From Bacteroidaceae bacterium (GTDB taxonomy: Bacteria; Bacteroidota; Bacteroidia; Bacteroidales; Bacteroidaceae), in contig JAFVTL010000016.1 of assembly GCA_017503235.1 (NCBI GenBank), positions 1-32,372 of the forward strand: a DNA stretch of 32,372 nt, in the 5' to 3' direction. A program made the position numbers and the translations under genes. The notes beneath the pieces were generated by a model, which worked only from the letters and a program-made list of their open reading frames with translations, made no database searches and was not told the DNA's origin. The stretch's first letter is position 1. The number at the start of each line of letters is the position of its first letter. Below are positions 17,081-29,893 of the stretch, piece after piece.

Positions 17081-19102
17081 TTAAAAATTAAATGTTCCTG
17101 TCAGTCTCCACGAGCGTCCCGGCATGGGATAATACTTGATGACATCGTATTGTGCATCCGTCAGGTTGATGACTTCGGCTTGCAGACGCAATCCGCATTT
17201 CTTCCATTTGAACTCCCTCCAGAGGGTGGCCGTATGCTCGTTGTATCCTTCTATCTCATTGGCTTTGATGTTTTGTGCCATGTAATAGCGTTTGCCCACC
17301 ATGCTCATCGTATACCCGATGTTCACCCAGGGCGTTTCGAACGTGGCCGAAACATTGCCGTTATGTTCGGGGGTATAGGGAAGCTGGTGCTTGTAGTTCT
17401 TGGCTTCTTTGTTGGTTACATCGAGTGCCTTCTGCCAGGAGTAATTGCCTGACAGGTTCAGATTGACTTTCCGACCGAAAGGAATGGCGGTGGCCAGTGT
17501 CACATCAATCCCGGTGATGTGTACCTTTCCATAGTTCTGCATCTTCCATACATAAGTGCTGGGGAAAGCGATAATCTTGTCCTTCACCTCGTTGTAGTAT
17601 CCGTCCACGGTGATTGATACGAAATCGGTGAAGCTGAAAGGTGTACCGCTCCATGTCAAGCCGATGGTATATTCCGTAGCTTTTTCAGGTCTCAGGTTCG
17701 TGTTCCCCACGCGGAGGTAATAGAGGTCGCTGAAGGTCGGCACACGGAAGGTGTTCTTGTACAAGGCACGTACGAAGAACTGTTCCTCTTTCCAGGGCTG
17801 CCAAGAGGCCGACAGAGTGGGCGATAGGCGCTTGCGGTCGTCGGGGGTGTTTCCTGCCTTGACTTCTTCTGTGATATATGTCGCTACCAACGTACCGGAC
17901 ACTTTCAAACGTTTGCCTTGATAGCGGGCGTTCAGGGCGGTCAAGGAAGTGTATCGGGTGGGCTCCGGCGAATGGAGGCCGTTCGTATGCAAGTGGTTGA
18001 TGGCACCATCCTGCGAAACGGATACACTCAAACTTGGTAGTGGCTTGTACAATACGGATGCGGAAAGGTAATACTCATATTGACGGTTGGTGTCCGTTTG
18101 TTTGCCGCCTGTATACTCTACACCTGTATCTTCGTATTTGTTCCATGAATAGTTGTATTTGCCTTGTGCCTGAAATGTCCACTTCGGATTGAACGCCTTC
18201 TTGTATCGGGCTTGTGCAAAGAAGTTCTCATCCCAAAGGCGTTCATCCGATTCAGGATTGTATAGGATGACCGCACCGGGCAATCCGCGCTTGGAATGGT
18301 AGTAATAAGCTTTGGCGCTCAGTTCGCTTTCATCCTTGAATGTATGAAAGAGATTCATTTCGCCTTGATAGGATTCGATGTCCGAATTGATGCGCTTTTC
18401 ATTGCTGATGTAGTTTCCTTCCTTGATGGTAAACGGATAGTCACCTTCGGCATGCAGGTAGTTGGCATCTATCGTCAAGTAAGTTCGTTCGCCCAGTTTC
18501 TGCCAGTGCCGGAGGGCAGGAGTGAGGTAGCCGAAAGAACCGCCACGCATCTGTAGCTGGGTAAAGGTATTTCTTCCATCTTCCAAACGGGGCTTTTCGG
18601 TTTCGATGTTCAGAACACCGGCCGAAGCGAATAGTCGTGCCGATTGAAGCAGATTGTCATCATGTCCGATGGCAAGCGAAAGGTTCGATACGTTGTCCAA
18701 CGAGAATCGTCCGATGTCTATCTGTCCTGCCTGCGTGTTGCTGATGGCCACACCGTCATAGCTGACTGCTGTATGGGCTGCACCGAGATTGCGCACGGAG
18801 ACGGTCTTCAAGCCACCGATGCCGCCATAGTCGCGCACGTTGGTGCCGGCGAATCGCTTCACCGCATCGCCCATGTTCTGAAGGCCGAGGTTTTTCAAGT
18901 CCTCCTTACTCAAGACTTGTACGGAGGTGGCAGAGGTGATTTTGGCGGGCATACGTCGGGCGGTCACGGTGACGGCATCCAGTTGGTGCACTTTACCGCT
19001 GATGGAGTCCTTTTTCTCCTGAGCCGTTGCCATGGACCATGATAGGATGACCATAACAATCCGACATACCCATACACGAAAGGCTGGGTTCAGTTTCTTC
19101 AT
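17081..19102 (-). CDS. btuB: TonB-dependent outer-membrane cobalamin receptor
   Basis: The 673-aa protein (from the second ATG at 19102; an in-frame ATG at 19123 would add seven residues) has a signal peptide ending SMATAQ, a TonB-box-like LDAVTVTARR and a plug domain with KEDLKNLGLQNMGDAVKRFAGTNVRDYGG and GVLNIETEKP. A 22-strand-type beta-barrel follows, ending in the aromatic residue of RLTGTFNF. There is no CarboxypepD-like N-terminal extension, so it is a BtuB-type rather than SusC-type receptor. It is the first gene after the cobalamin riboswitch and lies directly upstream of btuG. It imports B12 across the outer membrane using TonB energy. Confidence 0.9.
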   Translation of the reverse strand: MKKLNPAFRVWVCRIVMVILSWSMATAQEKKDSISGKVHQLDAVTVTARRMPAKITSATSVQVLSKEDLKNLGLQNMGDAVKRFAGTNVRDYGGIGGLKTVSVRNLGAAHTAVSYDGVAISNTQAGQIDIGRFSLDNVSNLSLAIGHDDNLLQSARLFASAGVLNIETEKPRLEDGRNTFTQLQMRGGSFGYLTPALRHWQKLGERTYLTIDANYLHAEGDYPFTIKEGNYISNEKRINSDIESYQGEMNLFHTFKDESELSAKAYYYHSKRGLPGAVILYNPESDERLWDENFFAQARYKKAFNPKWTFQAQGKYNYSWNKYEDTGVEYTGGKQTDTNRQYEYYLSASVLYKPLPSLSVSVSQDGAINHLHTNGLHSPEPTRYTSLTALNARYQGKRLKVSGTLVATYITEEVKAGNTPDDRKRLSPTLSASWQPWKEEQFFVRALYKNTFRVPTFSDLYYLRVGNTNLRPEKATEYTIGLTWSGTPFSFTDFVSITVDGYYNEVKDKIIAFPSTYVWKMQNYGKVHITGIDVTLATAIPFGRKVNLNLSGNYSWQKALDVTNKEAKNYKHQLPYTPEHNGNVSATFETPWVNIGYTMSMVGKRYYMAQNIKANEIEGYNEHTATLWREFKWKKCGLRLQAEVINLTDAQYDVIKYYPMPGRSWRLTGTFNF

Positions 19103-19177
19103 AAACAAAATTAAATTATTCACAAAATTGCGCGCTCTTCCTGCTCTTTCCTCGAAAGCACGAAGCGTGACTTTTGT

Positions 19178-19358
19178 CTTGCAGGTCTTCTGACTTACCT
19201 CTGTTTACTTTGCCTTCCCACCTTTATATATAGGCAGTGGCTAAGAGAATTAAGTAAACTCAATCTGTAACGATGAGGCTTACAGCAGCGGGACTGTTCA
19301 GGACTTTCACCTGATTCCCTTTTCATCCGTTCCCTCGCTTAGTGGAGGTTGCGGAAAC
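19178..19358 (-). ncRNA. cobalamin riboswitch controlling btuB-btuG-btuF-btuC-btuD
   Basis: On the - strand the leader contains GGGAATCAGGTGAAAGTCCT, then ACAGTCCCGCTGCTGTAA, then GCCACTG, a GGGAAGGC segment and finally AGTCAGAAGACCTGC (19181-19195), the B12 box. These are in the order and spacing of a cobalamin riboswitch aptamer. A hairpin (AAAG(T)CACG/CGTGCTTT, 19155-19174) between aptamer and btuB may belong to the expression platform. No U-tract follows it, so control of translation is more likely than termination. Confidence 0.95.
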
Positions 19359-19367
19359 AAAACATTG

Positions 19368-19398
19368 CAAATGTAGGGAAAGATTTTTGATTGGCAAG
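19368..19398 (-). promoter_or_regulatory. promoter of the btu operon
   Basis: TACATTTG (- strand, 19375 to 19368) with CTTG 19 nt upstream (19398 to 19395; one mismatch to TTTG). The riboswitch begins about 10 nt downstream, as expected for its transcript. Confidence 0.65.
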
Positions 19399-22788: not shown

Positions 22789-22816
22789 AGTGGATGTGCA
22801 TTTCGACACACCCACT
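22789..22816. terminator. bidirectional terminator between esterase and tyrA
   Basis: AGTGGATGTG and CACACCCACT form a 10-bp stem with one mismatch and an 8-nt loop. T-rich bases follow on the + strand, and AAAAAA at 22782-22787 provides the U-run on the - strand. It can end both the esterase transcript and the Phe/Tyr operon, whose last codon lies 4 bp away. Confidence 0.75.
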
Positions 22817-22819
22817 TTT

Positions 22820-23593
22820 TTATTTGATTTTCTGGCGGATTCTGGTCAGAAAGGCTTTCATTGCTTCGGCATCCTTGCGGCTGATGATGTCCAGCAATTC
22901 GTTCAGTTCGGTGCGGATTCCTTCCACTTGAGCCGGTGTGCGAGGATTGAACAGAATTTCCTGTAACAAGTAGTCGTCTTCATTCAATACCCCCTTGGCT
23001 ATGGCCATGTGGCGTTTGAAGGTAGTACCCGGCGCATCTTGATGTTTCATCACCGCTGCAAAGACAAAGGTCGATACGAACGGGATGGACAAAGAGTAGG
23101 CAACCGTTTCATCGTGCTCTTCAAACGTGTATTCAAAGATGTTCAATCCCAAGTTCTGATACAAGTCCTTGAAGAATATCTTACCCATGTAGTCGCCTTC
23201 GCTGATGATGATGGCATTCTCGGAACTCAGCTTGTCGAGGTTGGCAAACGTAGGACCGAACATGGGGTGGGTGGATACATAGCGGAAGCCGCATTGTTCA
23301 TACCATTCCTTTAGCCCCGTCTTGACGGATGCAATGTCGCTGATGATACAATCCTTCGGAAGTGCGGGAAGCACTTGGTTGAATGCATCCAAGGTGTACT
23401 TTACCGTAGCGGCATTGATGACCAGTTCGGGCCTGAACTCACGAATTTCATCCAGTGTTGTATACCGATAGCAGTTGTACATGAAGCGCAACTTCTGTGG
23501 GTTTACATCGAATACGGCCGTTTCGTGCTTGAAACTCAATACGTCGGTAAAGAAAGAACCCATCTTACCGGCTCCTAAAATCAATATTCTCAT
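22820..23593 (-). CDS. tyrA: prephenate dehydrogenase (tyrosine branch)
   Basis: The ATG at 23593 (MRILILGAGKMGSFFTD) is chosen because the NAD(P)-binding glycine motif GAGKMG starts at residue 7; the frame stays open a little upstream from a non-ATG codon. The 257-aa protein has DVNPQKLRF, ELVINAATVKYTLDAFNQ, DIASVKTGLKEWYE and the substrate-binding YVSTHPMFGPTFANLD motif with its conserved His. It converts prephenate to 4-hydroxyphenylpyruvate. There is no ACT or chorismate mutase domain; the mutase is fused to the DAHP synthase upstream. It is the last gene of the attenuated Phe/Tyr operon. Confidence 0.9.
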   Translation of the reverse strand: MRILILGAGKMGSFFTDVLSFKHETAVFDVNPQKLRFMYNCYRYTTLDEIREFRPELVINAATVKYTLDAFNQVLPALPKDCIISDIASVKTGLKEWYEQCGFRYVSTHPMFGPTFANLDKLSSENAIIISEGDYMGKIFFKDLYQNLGLNIFEYTFEEHDETVAYSLSIPFVSTFVFAAVMKHQDAPGTTFKRHMAIAKGVLNEDDYLLQEILFNPRTPAQVEGIRTELNELLDIISRKDAEAMKAFLTRIRQKIK

Positions 23594-23610
23594 AATGCTT
23601 ATGCTTTTTT

Positions 23611-23732
23611 TCACCACAGATTACACTGATTTTCACGGATTGAAAATTAAAGTAGACAATAACTTGTGTTAACTAGTATATTCTTCTCAAATTCAATTTA
23701 TTGTCTGTGAGAATCTGTGTACTCTGTGGTGA
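23611..23732. repeat. palindromic intergenic repeat, CACCACAGATTACACTGA family (long form)
   Basis: TCACCACAGATTACACTGAT is mirrored by AATCTGTGTACTCTGTGGTGA. The interior is longer (about 80 bp) than in the other copies. It fills the gap between the DAHP synthase gene and tyrA. Confidence 0.85.
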
Positions 23733-23740
23733 GTAAAAAA

Positions 23741-24808
23741 TCACTTGTTGATAATCTCCATCTGTTGGCGTACACTTTCCTCGTGGATGGCTTCGAACAC
23801 CTTCTTGATGAATTCGGAACCCATACCGCAGAGCGCACCTTGTGCACCACGCTTGTCGAGGATTTCATTGTAACGTCCGGTTTGGAGGATGGTCATGTCG
23901 TGCTCCTTCTTGAAGGTACCGATTTCACGACATACACGCATGCGCTTGGCCAATACTTCGATTATCTGGTTGTCGCATTCGTCAATCTGGTTACGCAATT
24001 CGCCCAGACTTTCTGTGCTTTGCTTGCCTTCGCGGATAACCAGCAGGTCGAGGATGTAATTCAACACATCGGGAGTTACCTGTTGGGAAGCGTCACTCCA
24101 TGCACTGTCGGGGCTGCAATGGCTTTCGATGATGAGTCCGTCGAAGCCCAAGTCCATGGCTTGCTGACAGAGCGGAGCAACCAATTCACGCTTTCCACCA
24201 ATGTGGCTCGGGTCGCAGAAGATAGGAAGTTCCGGTATACGACGACGCAGTTCGATAGGGATGTGCCATTGCGGAAGGTTGCGGTATATCTTCTTGTCAT
24301 ACGAGGAGAAGCCGCGATGGATGGCTCCCAAACGCTTCAGACCTGCTCCGTTGATACGTTCCAATGCACCAATCCACAATTCCAAATCCGGATTGACGGG
24401 ATTCTTGACCAGTACGGGAATGTCTACACCCTTCAAGGCATCGGCTATTTCCTGTACGGCAAATGGGTTGGCAGTGGTACGTGCACCAATCCAAAGAATG
24501 TCGATACCTGCCTTCAAGCATTCGTATACGTGCTTGGCGGTAGCCACTTCGGTGGAAACCAGCATCCCGGTTTCTTCCTTTACACGCTTCATCCATGCCA
24601 GACCTTCCACACCGATACCTTCGAAACCGCCCGGCTTGGTACGTGGCTTCCAGATACCTGCACGGAATATCTTGGTACCTCTATTGGCCAGTGATTGGGC
24701 AGTAGTCATTACTTGTTCTTCGGTTTCGGCGCTACAGGGGCCTGCTATAACGATGGGACGTTCCTGCGGAACTCCGGGTAATGCTAAGGGTTGTAATTCT
24801 AATTCCAT
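23741..24808 (-). CDS. bifunctional DAHP synthase / chorismate mutase (AroQ type)
   Basis: A 355-aa fusion. Residues about 1-260 are a type I-beta (KDO8P-synthase-like) 3-deoxy-7-phosphoheptulonate synthase: IVIAGPCSAET, FRAGIWKPRTKPGGFEG, LVSTEVATAKH, LWIGARTTANPF, VLVKNPVNPD, FCDPSHIGGKRE and GLIIESHCSPD. Residues about 265-355 are an AroQ chorismate mutase: LGELRNQIDECDNQIIEVLAKRMRV and IGTFKKEHDM. It catalyses the entry step of the shikimate pathway and the branch-point rearrangement to prephenate, feeding both flanking enzymes of the operon. The mutase domain is likely also the route for prephenate feedback (known for such fusions; not visible here). Confidence 0.93.
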   Translation of the reverse strand: MELELQPLALPGVPQERPIVIAGPCSAETEEQVMTTAQSLANRGTKIFRAGIWKPRTKPGGFEGIGVEGLAWMKRVKEETGMLVSTEVATAKHVYECLKAGIDILWIGARTTANPFAVQEIADALKGVDIPVLVKNPVNPDLELWIGALERINGAGLKRLGAIHRGFSSYDKKIYRNLPQWHIPIELRRRIPELPIFCDPSHIGGKRELVAPLCQQAMDLGFDGLIIESHCSPDSAWSDASQQVTPDVLNYILDLLVIREGKQSTESLGELRNQIDECDNQIIEVLAKRMRVCREIGTFKKEHDMTILQTGRYNEILDKRGAQGALCGMGSEFIKKVFEAIHEESVRQQMEIINK

Positions 24809-24995: not shown

Positions 24996-26183
24996 TTATA
25001 GTTTCATCTTTTTAATTCTTTCCAAAGCTTCCGCCAACTTGTCTTCCTTGGCACAAAGCGAGATGCGGATGTATCGCTTGCCGTTGCTTCCGAAGATGAA
25101 TCCCGGAGTGATGAACACGCGGGCTTCGTGCAATACCTTTTCGGTCAGGTCTTCCACATCGTTGTACGAGTCGGGGATACGTCCCCAAAGGAACATGCCT
25201 ACTTGGTTGGTGTCGAAGGTACAACCTAATGTCCGCATGATTTCTTCGGCCAATTGGCGACGGCGGCTATATACGTTGATATTGGCTTCTTCGTGCCATT
25301 CGATGCTGTTGTTATAGGCCTGTGCAGCAGCCAACTGCATGGGGCGGAAGGTACCCGAGTCGATGTTGCTCTTTATCTTCAGTATCCATTGTACGAACTG
25401 GGCGTTAGTGGCCAACAGACCTACACGCCAGCCCGGCATGTTGTGACTCTTACTCATGGAGTTGAACTCGATGCAACATTCCTTGGCACCCGGTACGTTG
25501 AGGATGCTCAACGGTTTCTTGTTCAGAATGAGGCTATAGGGGTTGTCGTTTACAATCACAATGTTGTGACGGCGAGCGAAATCCACTAACTTCTCATACA
25601 GTTCCATGGTTGCATTGGCACCGGTGGGCATATTGGGGTAGTTGGTCCACATCAGCTTTACACGGCTCAAGTCCATCTTTTCCAGTTCCTCGAAATCGGG
25701 TTGCCAACCGTTGTCTTCACGAAGGTTGTAGTTTACTATTTCGCTTCCCAATATCTTGTTCAGTGAGGTGTAAGTAGGATACCCCGGATTGGGAACCAAT
25801 ATTTGGTCGCCCGGATTCACAAAAGCCAATGTCACGTGAAGGATACCTTCTTTCGAACCGATAAGCGGTTGGATTTCGGTAGCCGGGTCGAGGTCCACAT
25901 GGTACCAGCGCTTGTACCAATCGGCCATTGCCTTGCGAAGTTCGGGAATACCGACGGTAGGTTGGTATCCATGCACGTCGGCACGCTTGGCTTGTTCGCA
26001 AAGCACGTTGACAGTTTCTTCCGATGGAGGCATGTCCGGGCTTCCGATACCTAAGCTGATGACATTCTTGCCTTCAGCGTTCATTTGTGCCACTTCCTTC
26101 AGTTTGCGGCTGAAGTAATATTCGCTGACGTTTGACAGACGGTCGGCCGGCACGATATTATATGCTTGATTTTCCTTCTTCAT
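24996..26183 (-). CDS. class I/II PLP-dependent aminotransferase of the Phe/Tyr operon
   Basis: A 395-aa fold-type I aminotransferase: GIGSPDMPPSEETVNVL, GYQPTVGIPELRKAMADWY, ILVPNPGYPTYTSL, MWTNYPNMPTGA (substrate/cofactor Asn), VIVNDNPYSLI (Asp-x-x-Tyr), the PLP lysine in FNSMSKSHNMPGWRVG and the carboxylate-binding Arg in RYIRISLC. The start at 26183 overlaps the end of pheA by 26 bp, indicating translational coupling. Position between pheA and the DAHP synthase implies it aminates phenylpyruvate and 4-hydroxyphenylpyruvate. Sequence alone would not distinguish this from aspartate- or diaminopimelate-type enzymes. Confidence 0.9.
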   Translation of the reverse strand: MKKENQAYNIVPADRLSNVSEYYFSRKLKEVAQMNAEGKNVISLGIGSPDMPPSEETVNVLCEQAKRADVHGYQPTVGIPELRKAMADWYKRWYHVDLDPATEIQPLIGSKEGILHVTLAFVNPGDQILVPNPGYPTYTSLNKILGSEIVNYNLREDNGWQPDFEELEKMDLSRVKLMWTNYPNMPTGANATMELYEKLVDFARRHNIVIVNDNPYSLILNKKPLSILNVPGAKECCIEFNSMSKSHNMPGWRVGLLATNAQFVQWILKIKSNIDSGTFRPMQLAAAQAYNNSIEWHEEANINVYSRRRQLAEEIMRTLGCTFDTNQVGMFLWGRIPDSYNDVEDLTEKVLHEARVFITPGFIFGSNGKRYIRISLCAKEDKLAEALERIKKMKL

Positions 26184-27000
26184 ATTCTCCTAATACTTTA
26201 AGTTCTTTGGTCAAGGGTGATACGGCATCGATGCTCTGACGGAAGCGGAGGTAGTCGTTGAAGATGACATCCACATAGAACAGATATTCCCATTCGCGTC
26301 CGATGATGGGCAAGGATTGTATCTTGGTGAGGTTGATTTTATAGAACGAGAAGATGCTGAGCACTTGCGAGAGGCTTCCTTCGTTGTGGGGGAGGGAGAA
26401 CACGATGTTTGCCTTGTTCATCTTTGAGCGTTCACGCAGGTCGTCGGCTATCCAAGGATCGGCTACTATCAGGAAGCGGGTGAAGTTGTGCTTGTTGGTT
26501 TCGATACCTTCTTCCAGCACTTTCATGCCGTACAGCTCGGCGGCATATTGGGAGCAGATGGCGGCATGTCCGCGCATATTGCCTTTCTTGATGACTTCCG
26601 CACTCTTGGCCGTATCATCGGCTTCCACCACTTTCAAGTTGGGATGGCGCTTCAGGAACTGTTGACATTGTGCCAAGGCTACAGGGTGGGAGTTGATTTC
26701 GGTCAGTGTATCCCAGTCGTCTTCGGGCAGACATACGCAACTGTGTTTGATGCGGAGCTTGTGTTCGCCGATGATGGTGGCACCGCTGTCGCGAAGCAAT
26801 TCGTAGTTGTGCAACAGACTTCCGGCAATGGTATTTTCGATGGCAAGCATCCCAATGACGTTGCTGTCCTGCTTCATGTGTTCGAAGATTTCTTCGAATG
26901 TGTCGCAACAGATCAGTTCCAATTCTTCATTAGGAAAGAACTGATGGGCGGCAATGTCGTGGAATGAGCCGGGCACTCCTTGTATGGCTATCTTCTTCAT
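26158..27000 (-). CDS. pheA: prephenate dehydratase (phenylalanine branch)
   Basis: A 280-aa monofunctional enzyme. The catalytic PDT domain (about residues 1-180) has KIAIQGVPGSFHDIAAHQFF, GMLAIENTIAGSLLHNYELL, the ALAQCQQFL region, DDTAKSAEVIKKGN and the catalytic-loop TRFLIVA. An ACT domain follows (about 195-275, NIVFSLPHNEGSLSQVLSIF). The Phe-binding motifs of the ACT domain are altered: the usual ESRP reads QSLP (in NLTKIQSLPI) and GALA-like reads GSLS. It decarboxylates and dehydrates prephenate to phenylpyruvate. It is the first structural gene after the attenuator, 18 nt beyond the terminator hairpin. Confidence 0.93.
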   Translation of the reverse strand: MKKIAIQGVPGSFHDIAAHQFFPNEELELICCDTFEEIFEHMKQDSNVIGMLAIENTIAGSLLHNYELLRDSGATIIGEHKLRIKHSCVCLPEDDWDTLTEINSHPVALAQCQQFLKRHPNLKVVEADDTAKSAEVIKKGNMRGHAAICSQYAAELYGMKVLEEGIETNKHNFTRFLIVADPWIADDLRERSKMNKANIVFSLPHNEGSLSQVLSIFSFYKINLTKIQSLPIIGREWEYLFYVDVIFNDYLRFRQSIDAVSPLTKELKVLGEYEEGKSSI

Positions 27001-27012
27001 CTTGTTATAGTA

Positions 27013-27040
27013 ATAAAAAATCCCGCTTTCAAGCGGGATT
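27013..27040 (-). terminator. attenuator terminator of the Phe/Tyr operon
   Basis: On the - strand AATCCCGCTT-GA-AAGCGGGATT is a perfect 10-bp hairpin (27040 to 27019) followed by a run of T, between the leader peptide and pheA. The upstream sequence AAGCGGGA at 27098-27091, inside the leader peptide codons, is identical to the 3' arm. It can therefore capture the 5' arm TCCCGCTT (27038-27031) to form an antiterminator. Confidence 0.85.
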
Positions 27041-27071
27041 CGTTGTTTATTTCAAATGATTCATTTCTCAA

Positions 27072-27161
27072 TTAACGTACACATACAAACTCCCGCTTCA
27101 CTTTGTTGCTAAAGTAAAAGTAAAAGAAGAAGTAAAAATATGTATTGTACAAGGCTTTCAT
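27072..27161 (-). CDS. Phe/Tyr leader peptide of the attenuator, 29 aa
   Basis: A short gene, read on the - strand from ATG 27161 to TAA 27072. The peptide starts MKAL and continues YNTYFYFFFYFYF: five Tyr and six Phe codons within 13, then SNKVKREFVCVR. Such a run is the signature of a ribosome-stalling leader that senses charged tRNA-Phe and tRNA-Tyr. An AGGA lies 13 nt upstream of the ATG. The codons AAG CGG GAG (27098-27090) carry the antiterminator arm. When Phe or Tyr is scarce the stalled ribosome should leave this arm free to block the terminator; when plentiful the ribosome moves over it and the terminator forms. The open point is that a ribosome at the stop codon only just reaches the arm. 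Confidence 0.85.
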   Translation of the reverse strand: MKALYNTYFYFFFYFYFSNKVKREFVCVR

Positions 27162-27195
27162 GTAAAATTGTTCCTTTTTGTTGTTAAATATGATG

Positions 27196-27229
27196 CAAAT
27201 GTAATACTTTTCCGATAAAAACAAGCAAA
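27196..27229 (-). promoter_or_regulatory. promoter of the Phe/Tyr operon
   Basis: TACATTTG on the - strand (27203 to 27196) fits the -7 consensus. Upstream are CTTG (27225 to 27222, 18-nt spacer) and TTTG (27229 to 27226, 22-nt spacer); the former spacing is nearer normal. The leader ATG is about 35 nt downstream. Confidence 0.6.
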
Positions 27230-27287: not shown

Positions 27288-27698
27288 TTAGGTGCTGTGG
27301 CTTTCTGTATATAATTTAATGTCTGTAAGTTCCAAAGACTCATAGATTTCCCGATATCCGAAATTATTGAAACTGTCGTCCTTTATAAAATAAAGAGTTG
27401 TAGCAACCCCACTGAAATGAACTCTTTTTCCTTCAAATTCTTTGTATTCCTCTTTCATGTTTTTTATAATCATGATGATGGAGCTTTCGATGGACATTCC
27501 TTCCGGATGTATTACCCATTGTTTGTTCTCATAAAGAAGTGTTCCGATAGCATTGGTTATAATTTGAGGCTTTTTCTGTTCTTCCGTTGGGTACACCCTT
27601 TCATCACCGTCCGAACACCCTTGAAAGGCGAGTACAGTCACGGCAAGCATACAAACCAATAGGCTTGTAAATACTCTGTTTAAGTTGTTCTTTTTCAT
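27288..27698 (-). CDS. small lipoprotein sharing the N-terminal domain of the neighbouring protease
   Basis: A 136-aa lipoprotein. The signal peptide MKKNNLNRVFTSLLVCMLAV is nearly identical to that of the metalloprotease upstream (one K/R difference) and ends at FQGCSD. The mature part also resembles the region after the protease signal: NAIGTLLYENKQWVIHPEG against NEVGTLFYSESTNSWIIVSD, and FEGKRVHFSGVATTLYF against LIGEKVIFSGEYIG. It therefore looks like a duplicated pre/pro-domain standing alone. A role as inhibitor, chaperone or decoy for the protease is inference. It has its own promoter region, after the protease terminator, containing the 5' element also found before the serpin. Confidence 0.8.
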   Translation of the reverse strand: MKKNNLNRVFTSLLVCMLAVTVLAFQGCSDGDERVYPTEEQKKPQIITNAIGTLLYENKQWVIHPEGMSIESSIIMIIKNMKEEYKEFEGKRVHFSGVATTLYFIKDDSFNNFGYREIYESLELTDIKLYTESHST

Positions 27699-27895: not shown

Positions 27896-29893
27896 CTATT
27901 GTGTAACAAAAGATATGCTATCTTCTAATATTGAGATTTCAACATCGGTAGAATCTTCCAATGAATTCCATCCTATTTGCGAGCAAGGCAATACTTCTAC
28001 AGGGATTTGGAACATAGTCCCCATTCCGTTAATCATGAGTGAAAGCATGATTTTCCCGTTAGCGGGTGCTGTGGCATAAGGCTGGATTAGGAACACATGA
28101 TTGGCTCCGACTTCCTTTATCGCATTTAAGTTGTAAATTTCAAAATTGAACACATCGGTATCCGTATAAGAGTATGCACCACACACGTCTGTATAGTGGA
28201 AAGTCAGAATCCCACCTTTGTGAAGCTTGATGGTACTATTATTGGGAGTAGACATATTGATAGTACCCAAGTAATTTCCACAAGGACTTTCAGAGCTCCA
28301 GGTCAGTGTACCCGTTTGAATAGGATTGGAAATTTTATAAACGGTCTTGGTTGCATAATATTCATAACGTTGATTTCCCGAACCAATGTAGATTGTTGCA
28401 TTGATGACATACTTTTGCGACAAGGCATTGGGGTATCTGTTCTGCAAGGTAATGGTACTTCCCGTTCCTGAAACCGTGTATTTGTTTGGCGAACTGCTTC
28501 CCGAAGCATAACTGGAGCAGTCAATGCTCCACTGCACGGTTGCATTACTCGGTACATTAATGGTATAGGTGTAAGTGCTTGATGAACCGATTTGTGTAGG
28601 GCCTGTGATTTCTCTATTGGTTATTGTTGCTGCTAACTGATGTGCATTGGAATAACTAAGAACATGGTGCATACATTCTACTTGTTTCTGTGTAAAATGA
28701 TTGCGACATGTAAGAAAAGAATAAGCCATTAAATTGCTTGGATCTGGAACATATATATCACCATTGGCATCTCTATCCGTGCCATTATAAGTACATCCCT
28801 CCCAACTATAGGGATCTGCCGGAGTATCCGTAATATAATCTCCGCAAGTGGAAGAATTACTGCCATCTACTAATTCCATACATGAACCGCTTGGACGTTC
28901 ATTAGGACTTGTACCATGATGTGTATGATATAAGCCTAAACAATGTCCCATTTCATGAGAAATTGTAGAAAATTTGTAATAGTCCTTTACGACTAAAAAT
29001 GCTGTTCCTATGATTTGTTCACTTCTTGCTGATACATTATTCTCCAAATAAGGAGCTTCACTCATTACATAAATATTAATAGCATTAGACACCCTATTAA
29101 TAGACAGATAACTACTAATATCATTCTTAAAATCACTGACAGACATATTGACAAATGCATCTGAATCAATATAATCAGAGCCACTCAGAACAAATGAAAT
29201 ATTAGTATTGGCAAAATAAGTATTCAAATTATTAAGAATAGTGGATGAAACAGAAGCCTTTGTATATTCACTACTTGCGGATCCATTACTAGGTCTTACA
29301 ACATGCACAAACACATTCATTTGATAGGCTGATGTATAATCTATGCCTTCGGCAATTTCCCTACTGAAGAACCATATTGGGGGCATATTAGACTTAGTTC
29401 CACATTCTACTATCAATTCTTCTGTGTCAATTGAACGTGATTTAAACGAAGAAATTTCAACATGATTGAAACATCTAATATAATATCCATATCCTACCAA
29501 ATATGCGTAGTCTTGAGTCTTTCCAGCAGGTAATGGATGATTACCTATATATTCACCTGAGAAAATAACTTTTTCTCCTATCAAGTTATTATACTTTTCT
29601 CTTTCAGCCTCATCGATACCTGTATCAATTAATTCATATATAATCATTCTTTCAGAAAGAGTATCATTTGGCAATTGAATAATAGAATCTGAGACTATAA
29701 TCCACGAATTTGTACTTTCACTATAAAAAAGAGTTCCAACTTCGTTGTTGGTCTCATAAACAGGTACTACTAATTCTATTAAATAGCTATCATCTTCATT
29801 TTCATCCTTACATCCTTTAAGGACGAATGCACTCACGGCAAGCATACAAACTAATAAGCTTGTAAAGACTTTGTTCAGGTTGTTCTTTTTCAT
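27896..29893 (-). CDS. secreted M43-like (pappalysin-type) zinc metalloprotease lipoprotein
   Basis: A 665-aa lipoprotein (signal MKKNNLNKVFTSLLVCMLAV, lipobox FVLKGC). An N-terminal domain (about residues 35-170) is shared with the small lipoprotein downstream and is probably a prodomain. The metzincin zinc site HEMGHCLGLYH is at residues 313-323, with the Glu catalytic and three His as ligands; the Met-turn is SNLMAYSFLTC, followed by FTQKQVECMHHVL as in the M43 family. Cys-rich loops (SGSCMELVDGS, TCGDYITDTPADPYSWEGC) suit the same family. The C-terminus has an Ig/PKD-like domain (GPTQIGSSSTYTYTINV) and a further beta domain. It is 29 bp after a DUF3244-like gene and likely co-transcribed with it. 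Substrate unknown; host or microbial surface proteins are plausible. Confidence 0.88.
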   Translation of the reverse strand: MKKNNLNKVFTSLLVCMLAVSAFVLKGCKDENEDDSYLIELVVPVYETNNEVGTLFYSESTNSWIIVSDSIIQLPNDTLSERMIIYELIDTGIDEAEREKYNNLIGEKVIFSGEYIGNHPLPAGKTQDYAYLVGYGYYIRCFNHVEISSFKSRSIDTEELIVECGTKSNMPPIWFFSREIAEGIDYTSAYQMNVFVHVVRPSNGSASSEYTKASVSSTILNNLNTYFANTNISFVLSGSDYIDSDAFVNMSVSDFKNDISSYLSINRVSNAINIYVMSEAPYLENNVSARSEQIIGTAFLVVKDYYKFSTISHEMGHCLGLYHTHHGTSPNERPSGSCMELVDGSNSSTCGDYITDTPADPYSWEGCTYNGTDRDANGDIYVPDPSNLMAYSFLTCRNHFTQKQVECMHHVLSYSNAHQLAATITNREITGPTQIGSSSTYTYTINVPSNATVQWSIDCSSYASGSSSPNKYTVSGTGSTITLQNRYPNALSQKYVINATIYIGSGNQRYEYYATKTVYKISNPIQTGTLTWSSESPCGNYLGTINMSTPNNSTIKLHKGGILTFHYTDVCGAYSYTDTDVFNFEIYNLNAIKEVGANHVFLIQPYATAPANGKIMLSLMINGMGTMFQIPVEVLPCSQIGWNSLEDSTDVEISILEDSISFVTQ

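Follow-up and report, generated by a model that had tools for sequence, protein, structure and literature searches.

The window analyzed here, a stretch of 32,372 nucleotides (nt) from a Bacteroidaceae bacterium (contig JAFVTL010000016.1), very probably contains an attenuator of the trp/phe type that senses both Phe and Tyr and precedes an operon for aromatic amino acid synthesis. From sequence comparison, we estimate a probability of about 0.93 that this element is a ribosome-mediated transcription attenuator responding to charged tRNA-Phe and tRNA-Tyr. The reading is built on a leader open reading frame (ORF), on RNA arms with their complementarity and spacing, on the conservation of these parts, and on a match between leader codons and downstream genes.

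The candidate attenuator and its operon

The leader ORF is located on the minus strand between pheA and a short lipoprotein-like gene. It has 29 codons (27072 to 27161, including the stop codon TAA at 27074 to 27072), starts with the ATG at 27161, and encodes the peptide MKALYNTYFYFFFYFYFSNKVKREFVCVR. Its translation and comparison with relatives mark codons 5 to 17 (27111 to 27149) as the putative regulatory codons, with 5 Tyr and 6 Phe codons in 13; the first-pass annotation had given the same start, stop, and codon counts. Two boxes of a candidate promoter lie upstream on the same strand, a −33-like box TTTG (27226 to 27229) and a −7-like box TACATTTG (27196 to 27203), which together would fit the Bacteroides-type promoter consensus. 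Strings resembling TACATTTG were seen upstream in many relatives (by eye, uncounted). No Shine-Dalgarno sequence was seen by eye at the usual distance from the leader ATG, and protein family searches of NCBIfam and Pfam with two leader peptides returned zero matches.

An intrinsic terminator is found between the leader and the first gene, in the window as well as in relatives, and the window contains a single leader-terminator unit. The terminator stem consists of GAATCCCGCT (27041 to 27032), the loop TGAA, and AGCGGGATTT (27027 to 27018), followed by T's to 27015. The earlier description of a perfect 10-bp hairpin before pheA holds for the position and the ten pairs; the loop had to be adjusted to TGAA, and nine pairs are Watson-Crick and one is G.U. 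Three arms on the minus strand can be delimited: arm 2 (AAGCGGGA, 27091 to 27098, within codons 22 to 24), which is the 5′ strand of the antiterminator and contains a covarying pair with arm 3; arm 3 (GAATCCCGCTT, 27031 to 27041), which by sequence and covariation is common to the antiterminator (27038 to 27031) and the terminator; and arm 4 with the T-run (27015 to 27027), the 3′ strand of the terminator according to a terminator search and the relatives. The proposal that the leader codons at 27098 to 27091 hold a second copy of an arm, complementary to the 5′ arm of the terminator, was confirmed. The fold of this region of the window has a z-score of −3.1, and none of 200 shuffled sequences was equally stable. 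Minimum free energy folds, with partial comparative support, also suggest that the leader ORF may itself form a 1:2 (protector or pause) hairpin (27077 to 27150, minus strand), which would engage arm 2.

The operon downstream, likewise on the minus strand, comprises pheA for prephenate dehydratase (26158 to 27000; best NCBIfam match with E = 1.5e-58 and 198 bits, just below the cut-off of 219), a class I aminotransferase gene (24996 to 26183; Pfam Aminotran_1_2), a DAHP synthase/chorismate mutase fusion gene (23741 to 24808; E = 1.3e-55, below curated cut-offs), and a tyrA-like prephenate dehydrogenase gene (22820 to 23617; best NCBIfam match 5.6e-15, below the curated cut-off). A terminator-like hairpin found by the terminator search (22789 to 22816, minus strand) closes the gene cluster. 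Elsewhere on the minus strand of the window, a Cobalamin riboswitch (19163 to 19377, 94.7 bits) lies just 5′ of a gene at 17081 to 19123 that by eye resembles a TonB receptor gene. Two lipoprotein-like genes next to each other at 27288 to 27698 and 27896 to 29893 (both minus strand) share a near-identical N-terminus, MKKNNLN-K/R-VFTSLLVCMLAV, and are otherwise divergent; the larger of them (27896 to 29893) matches Peptidase_M43.

Proposed mechanism

Transcription probably starts near 27190, and the leader would be translated by a ribosome following close behind RNA polymerase. When Phe or Tyr is short, the ribosome would stall within codons 5 to 17 and leave arm 2 free just ahead of it; free arm 2 would pair with arm 3, the 3:4 terminator would be prevented, and the operon would be transcribed. 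When Phe and Tyr are both plentiful, the ribosome would cover arm 2, 2:3 pairing would come too late, 3:4 would form, and transcription would end near 27015. Once the ribosome has been released, self-pairing of the leader ORF (1:2) may sequester arm 2. Stalling, coupling, termination, and the amino acid response are predicted features of the element.

The footprint of a ribosome extends 15 nt from the first base of the P site. With this footprint, a stall at the last Phe/Tyr codon would place the ribosome edge just short of arm 2, which stays free. Fold simulations with the same footprint, which considered the RNA ahead of the ribosome alone, showed that 2:3 forms wherever the ribosome stalls before or at the last Phe/Tyr codon (pair fraction of at least 0.71) and disappears no more than about 3 codons past the run in 8/8 leaders (that of the window and 7 others). 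Untranslated RNA of the window up to arm 3 prefers 2:3 (0.83), as does that of 4 of the 7 other leaders, and in the untranslated RNAs of L046, L044, and L061, 2:3 is near 0; protection by 1:2 is therefore weak in the window. In a comparison of leaders, an outer 1:2 stem was found in 23/92 and an inner one in 17/92, with about 5 expected for each. In the long layout, in which the ORF extends beyond the arm, a ribosome that has reached the stop codon may leave arm 2 exposed again behind it.

Occurrence in the order, class, and phylum

The survey of the order used 295 evenly sampled genomes; PheA was found in 139, and the 137 loci with at least 200 nt upstream were used. The remaining 156/295 genomes gave no PheA match with the query and could represent auxotrophs, divergent enzymes, or missed genes. 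In a test that is independent of the RNA model, up to 450 nt upstream were searched for ORFs that begin with ATG and have 7 or more Phe/Tyr codons in 12. Such an ORF was present at 115/137 pheA loci, versus 0.9 in dinucleotide shuffles and 2/137 on the reverse strand, and absent at this threshold from 22/137. With at least 6/12, the counts were 120/137 for pheA, 12 for the reverse strand, and 4.35 for shuffles. A leader together with a terminator was found at 112/137 loci.

For the arm analysis, 121 leaders were considered (at least 6/12, one added by hand), 118 of which have a terminator by the rule used. Arm 2 matches arm 3 in 92/118 leaders such that at most 5/100 shuffles do equally well; the matched stretches in these 92 fall into 73 distinct strings, many of which have a core in common and vary in length, and the ORF stops before the arm end in 39 and after it in 53. 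Arm 2 starts 7 to 16 nt past the run in 112/118 leaders (29 expected), a range that was chosen after viewing the arm data.

The covariance model R1 matched in 95/295 genomes of the order sample, 34/247 of the class sample, and 22/198 of the phylum sample; the samples overlap, and those of the class and phylum include members of the order itself. Of 106 matches in the order, 104 were examined (G006 C88 and G199 C156 were left out), and 92/104 have both a leader of at least 6/12 and a downstream aromatic gene. Among the remaining 12, three have the gene without an ATG leader (G262, G086, and G198), two have a leader where the contig ends (G110 and G028), G240 has neither and ends with its contig, and six have neither a leader nor an aromatic gene (G293, G194, G243 C174, G209 C18, G128 C3, and G014 C25). 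The best 9 new R1 loci of the class sample showed leader and aromatic gene in 9/9. At 23 further class and phylum loci, both were present in 17, PheA without an ATG leader in one (L300), and neither in 5; at L303, a Tyr-rich leader accompanies tyrA-like and aroF genes without pheA.

Codon content and downstream genes

The Tyr share of the leaders, Y/(F+Y), follows the genes behind them. It has a median of 0 in 8 pheA-only leaders (exactly 0 in 5/8, maximum 0.2), of 0.40 in 113 joint-operon leaders (0.11 to 0.78, never 0), and of 0.56 in 16 tyrA/aroF leaders without pheA (0.36 to 0.75). Rank tests on the Tyr share gave 1.5e-6 and 1e-4, with kinship ignored and the pheA-only class made up of four families; leaders of the class and phylum samples stand outside these tests. 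The pheA-only class is defined by none of the three partner genes being found behind pheA; the pheA leader of G243 (5/12) was added to it by hand, and the lone Tyr of G213 was counted even though it lies outside the Phe run. In the joint class, 107/113 assignments were checked by coordinates or tblastn, and the other 6 stayed in the class. For the tyrA/aroF class, 16 leaders were chosen by inspection, leaving out G158 (an AroA-like gene with a chorismate mutase-PheA fusion), G028, and G073. Five genomes (G014, G024, G208, G089, and G243) contain both kinds of leader, which differ as expected. As an observation apart, L278 and L279 have a Phe-run leader, pheA, and then genes that by eye resemble ilv/leu genes.

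These data bear on whether the element might sense Phe only, like pheL, with Tyr codons as passengers retained by RNA pairing. That pheA is the first gene and that bases of the Tyr codons join the predicted 1:2 pairing would suit such a sensor, but Tyr occurs in all 113 joint leaders and is missing from 5/8 pheA-only leaders, and Tyr abounds in tyrA/aroF leaders, including those in the five genomes that have both kinds, so we regard Phe-only sensing as highly unlikely. The tracking of downstream genes by codon content supports joint sensing of Phe and Tyr, and with it the first-pass suggestion that a single leader serves the whole operon for both amino acids.

Trp codons occur within the run in 0/8 pheA-only, 16/113 joint, and 6/16 tyrA/aroF leaders. 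Since two or more base changes separate Trp codons from every codon for Phe or Tyr, the sensing of Trp as a third amino acid is plausible in some operons. Upstream regions were also scanned at 20 tyrA loci that are separated from pheA or sit on a different contig, and at the tyrA-aroF locus of G014. Among the 20, a leader of at least 7/12 was present in 7, none in 12, and a single unlikely ORF in G134. Of the 12 leaderless loci, 3 hold at most 302 nt, and those of G179 and G188 are aminotransferase-tyrA clusters without a leader.

Conservation in close relatives

The close set consists of the best 80 loci listed that encode a close PheA. An ATG leader with at least 9 Phe/Tyr codons in 13 was found at 77 of these 80 best-listed loci. 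One locus with the element, L010, belongs to the laboratory strain P. vulgatus ATCC 8482. The three exceptions are L063, in which the sequence starts 37 nt before pheA; L051, in which the run and arms are present and the start codon region is missing; and L077 (2935 to 3801), in which the leader is in frame with pheA, joined near codon 15, without a terminator. The L077 fusion may be an assembly artifact of a metagenome-assembled genome or a natural bypass.

The 77 loci and the window together give 78 leaders for comparison. The last Phe/Tyr codon and the AGCRGG arm motif are 13 nt apart in 75/78, and the leaders of the close set have lengths of 17 to 32 codons. The stop codon varies in position, from 8 nt ahead of the arm start to 32 nt past it, and precedes the arm in 17/78, in records titled Prevotellaceae, Bacteroidaceae, or Bacteroidales. 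A fixed run-to-arm distance with a free stop codon would be explained by a ribosome at the last Phe/Tyr codon just freeing arm 2. In the trp attenuator layout, the stop codon precedes the arm. With the stop sliding and located before the arm in 17/78, the device comes in two layouts, of which the in-frame arm is one, and the first-pass view of the in-frame arm as a special coupling geometry was rejected.

At the varying position between arms 2 and 3, the 78 leaders have A-T in 42, G-C in 32, G-T in 3, and A-C in 1. The 7-pair 2:3 core is intact in 76/78, with one core pair broken in L024 and L042; in L044, an internal G-to-A change in arm 2 is compensated in arm 3, with a wobble tolerated in the terminator. 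Pairing in the terminator varies more than in the antiterminator: 8/8 pairs form in 51/78 and 6 or 7 in 27/78 (ungapped match). Unguided RNAalifold on 57 sequences returned the 2:3 antiterminator and not the terminator; 22 of these sequences are changed on both sides at the covarying 2:3 pair, and terminator pairs show G-C for A-T in 12/57 and C-G for T-A in 6/57. When mapped on a tree of PheA for the close set, the base in arm 2 shows just 4 changes, and supported branches carry 1 independent pair, so that the covariation of the close set reflects few events. An alignment of the region upstream of pheA in relatives, as had been proposed earlier, recovers the Phe/Tyr run and compensatory changes in the arms.

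The last four codons of the run, TAC-TTT-TAC-TTT, are near-invariant, including third positions, among 73 distinct ORFs of the close set. This exceeds the needs of amino acid sensing and would be in line with arrest by the nascent peptide or direct ligand sensing (a TnaC-like peptide, a riboswitch, or a T-box) in place of stalling at hungry codons. In several leaders, however, the invariant bases can pair with sequence flanking arm 2, which may explain the invariance, and F and Y swap at run positions −5 to −9, the peptides vary widely between families, and neither the site nor 13 related loci give an Rfam match at or above a family's cut-off. A riboswitch or T-box was rejected for that lack of Rfam matches, and we consider arrest or ligand sensing as a whole to be barely tenable next to stalling at Phe and Tyr codons.

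Equally hard to defend is a constitutive terminator behind an expressed small, aromatic-rich membrane protein with an incidental arm repeat: the peptide is hydrophobic and the L077 frame continues into pheA, perhaps as an assembly artifact, but the composition is Phe/Tyr rather than I/L/V (other than F and Y, I accounts for 1, L for 6, and V for 9 of 1,495 run residues, which argues against a membrane helix), length, C-terminus, and stop vary while the arm spacing hardly does, the arms covary, and the residues follow operon content. Composition and free length were the grounds for rejecting such a protein.

Successive leader-terminator units

Two successive leader-terminator units were flagged at 22/137 pheA loci of the order, of which G273 was judged spurious. 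G080, G166, and G223 were added by hand, as were G089 and G243 by their leaders alone, giving a list of 26 genomes in 15 families that likely have serial double attenuators. In the clear cases G146, G054, and G080, both peptides are Phe/Tyr-rich and the arms differ between the units; in G190 the arms look alike, and G200, G205, G118, G011, and G020 have weak first members. Leader attenuators in series before pheA were also noticed at L119, L121 to L124, L159, and others, with arm sequences that differ in several. L263 and L265 have two successive Tyr-rich leaders before aminotransferase-tyrA-aroF genes; three of the four leaders have no or one Trp codon, and one unit per genome has Trp. In these two genomes, pheA is located elsewhere, with a Phe-dominated leader.

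Implications for aromatic amino acid synthesis

The retuning of codons across relatives and the serial units are most likely the results that would surprise a specialist. We lean toward a broader reading, in which aromatic synthesis in Bacteroidota is governed by a modular, phylum-wide attenuator whose Phe:Tyr:Trp mix is retuned by selection to the downstream genes (Phe alone where pheA stands by itself, Tyr-rich before tyrA, both where the genes are joined, and Trp as well in some operons that include DAHP synthase). Its frequent doubling into two successive units would make the switch steeper and multiplicative. If true, this reading would imply close transcription-translation coupling in Bacteroidota and offer a testable switch for aromatic amino acid synthesis in a major gut and environmental phylum. 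The attenuator would be a natural reporter of whether the ribosomes of Bacteroidota track RNA polymerase closely enough. Split operons provide a ready-made experiment, in which the leader codon mix predicts the inducing amino acid, and the serial units pose the question of what a second check adds.

Comparison with known systems

Phe leaders of the Escherichia coli type encode a Phe-rich peptide and form a terminator or antiterminator before Phe genes. The literature searched, which excluded most subscription papers, yielded no report of a Phe/Tyr leader peptide in Bacteroidota. The study of Lopatovskaya et al. from 2010, cited in PMC4833913, could include Bacteroidota.

The Rfam model Phe_leader (RF01859) shows a weak, full-length resemblance to the site (29 bits, E = 0.0077), which misses its gathering score of 55. 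The leader of the window differs from that family in having Tyr codons as well and in its arms, phylum, and operon. Bacteroid-trp (RF01692), a motif described in PMC2864571, is likewise a cis-regulatory element of Bacteroidota but concerns another amino acid and operon, and its model gave no match at the window site. The genome of the window has one copy of Bacteroid-trp over the cut-off on another contig, with the leader MKRLIINTTWWWYSLQSERS before a terminator; this copy (L298, around 1521 on contig 97 of G000) precedes a gene that by eye resembles that for the tryptophan synthase beta chain.

Clues for leader peptide attenuation of amino acid operons have been presented for a Flavobacterium (PMC9723704), and small ORFs reminiscent of leader peptides for Bacteroides thetaiotaomicron (PMC7366714). 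Phe/Tyr upstream ORF candidates linked to the shikimate pathway (PMC6429828) and uORFC-13-1 before aroF (PMC8632094) are similarly predicted to read Phe or Phe/Tyr near aromatic genes, in other genomes; no Bacteroidota member was found among them in the accessible parts of these reports. The tandem attenuators of Salmonella mgtCBR have two short ORFs in one leader that controls the operon (PMC3641672), whereas the serial units described here are aromatic-rich in both ORFs and, in front of pheA, have a terminator each. Closest to the window is a putative attenuator listed in 2005, from Merino's database, before the B. thetaiotaomicron operon pheA>hisHb>aroAI-beta-aroQ>tyrA (Table 7 of PMC1173090). 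Operon and kind of element are the same as in the window; the table lists presence alone, and the main text of that paper has 0 occurrences of "leader peptide." For B. thetaiotaomicron, an attenuator before this operon had already been predicted.
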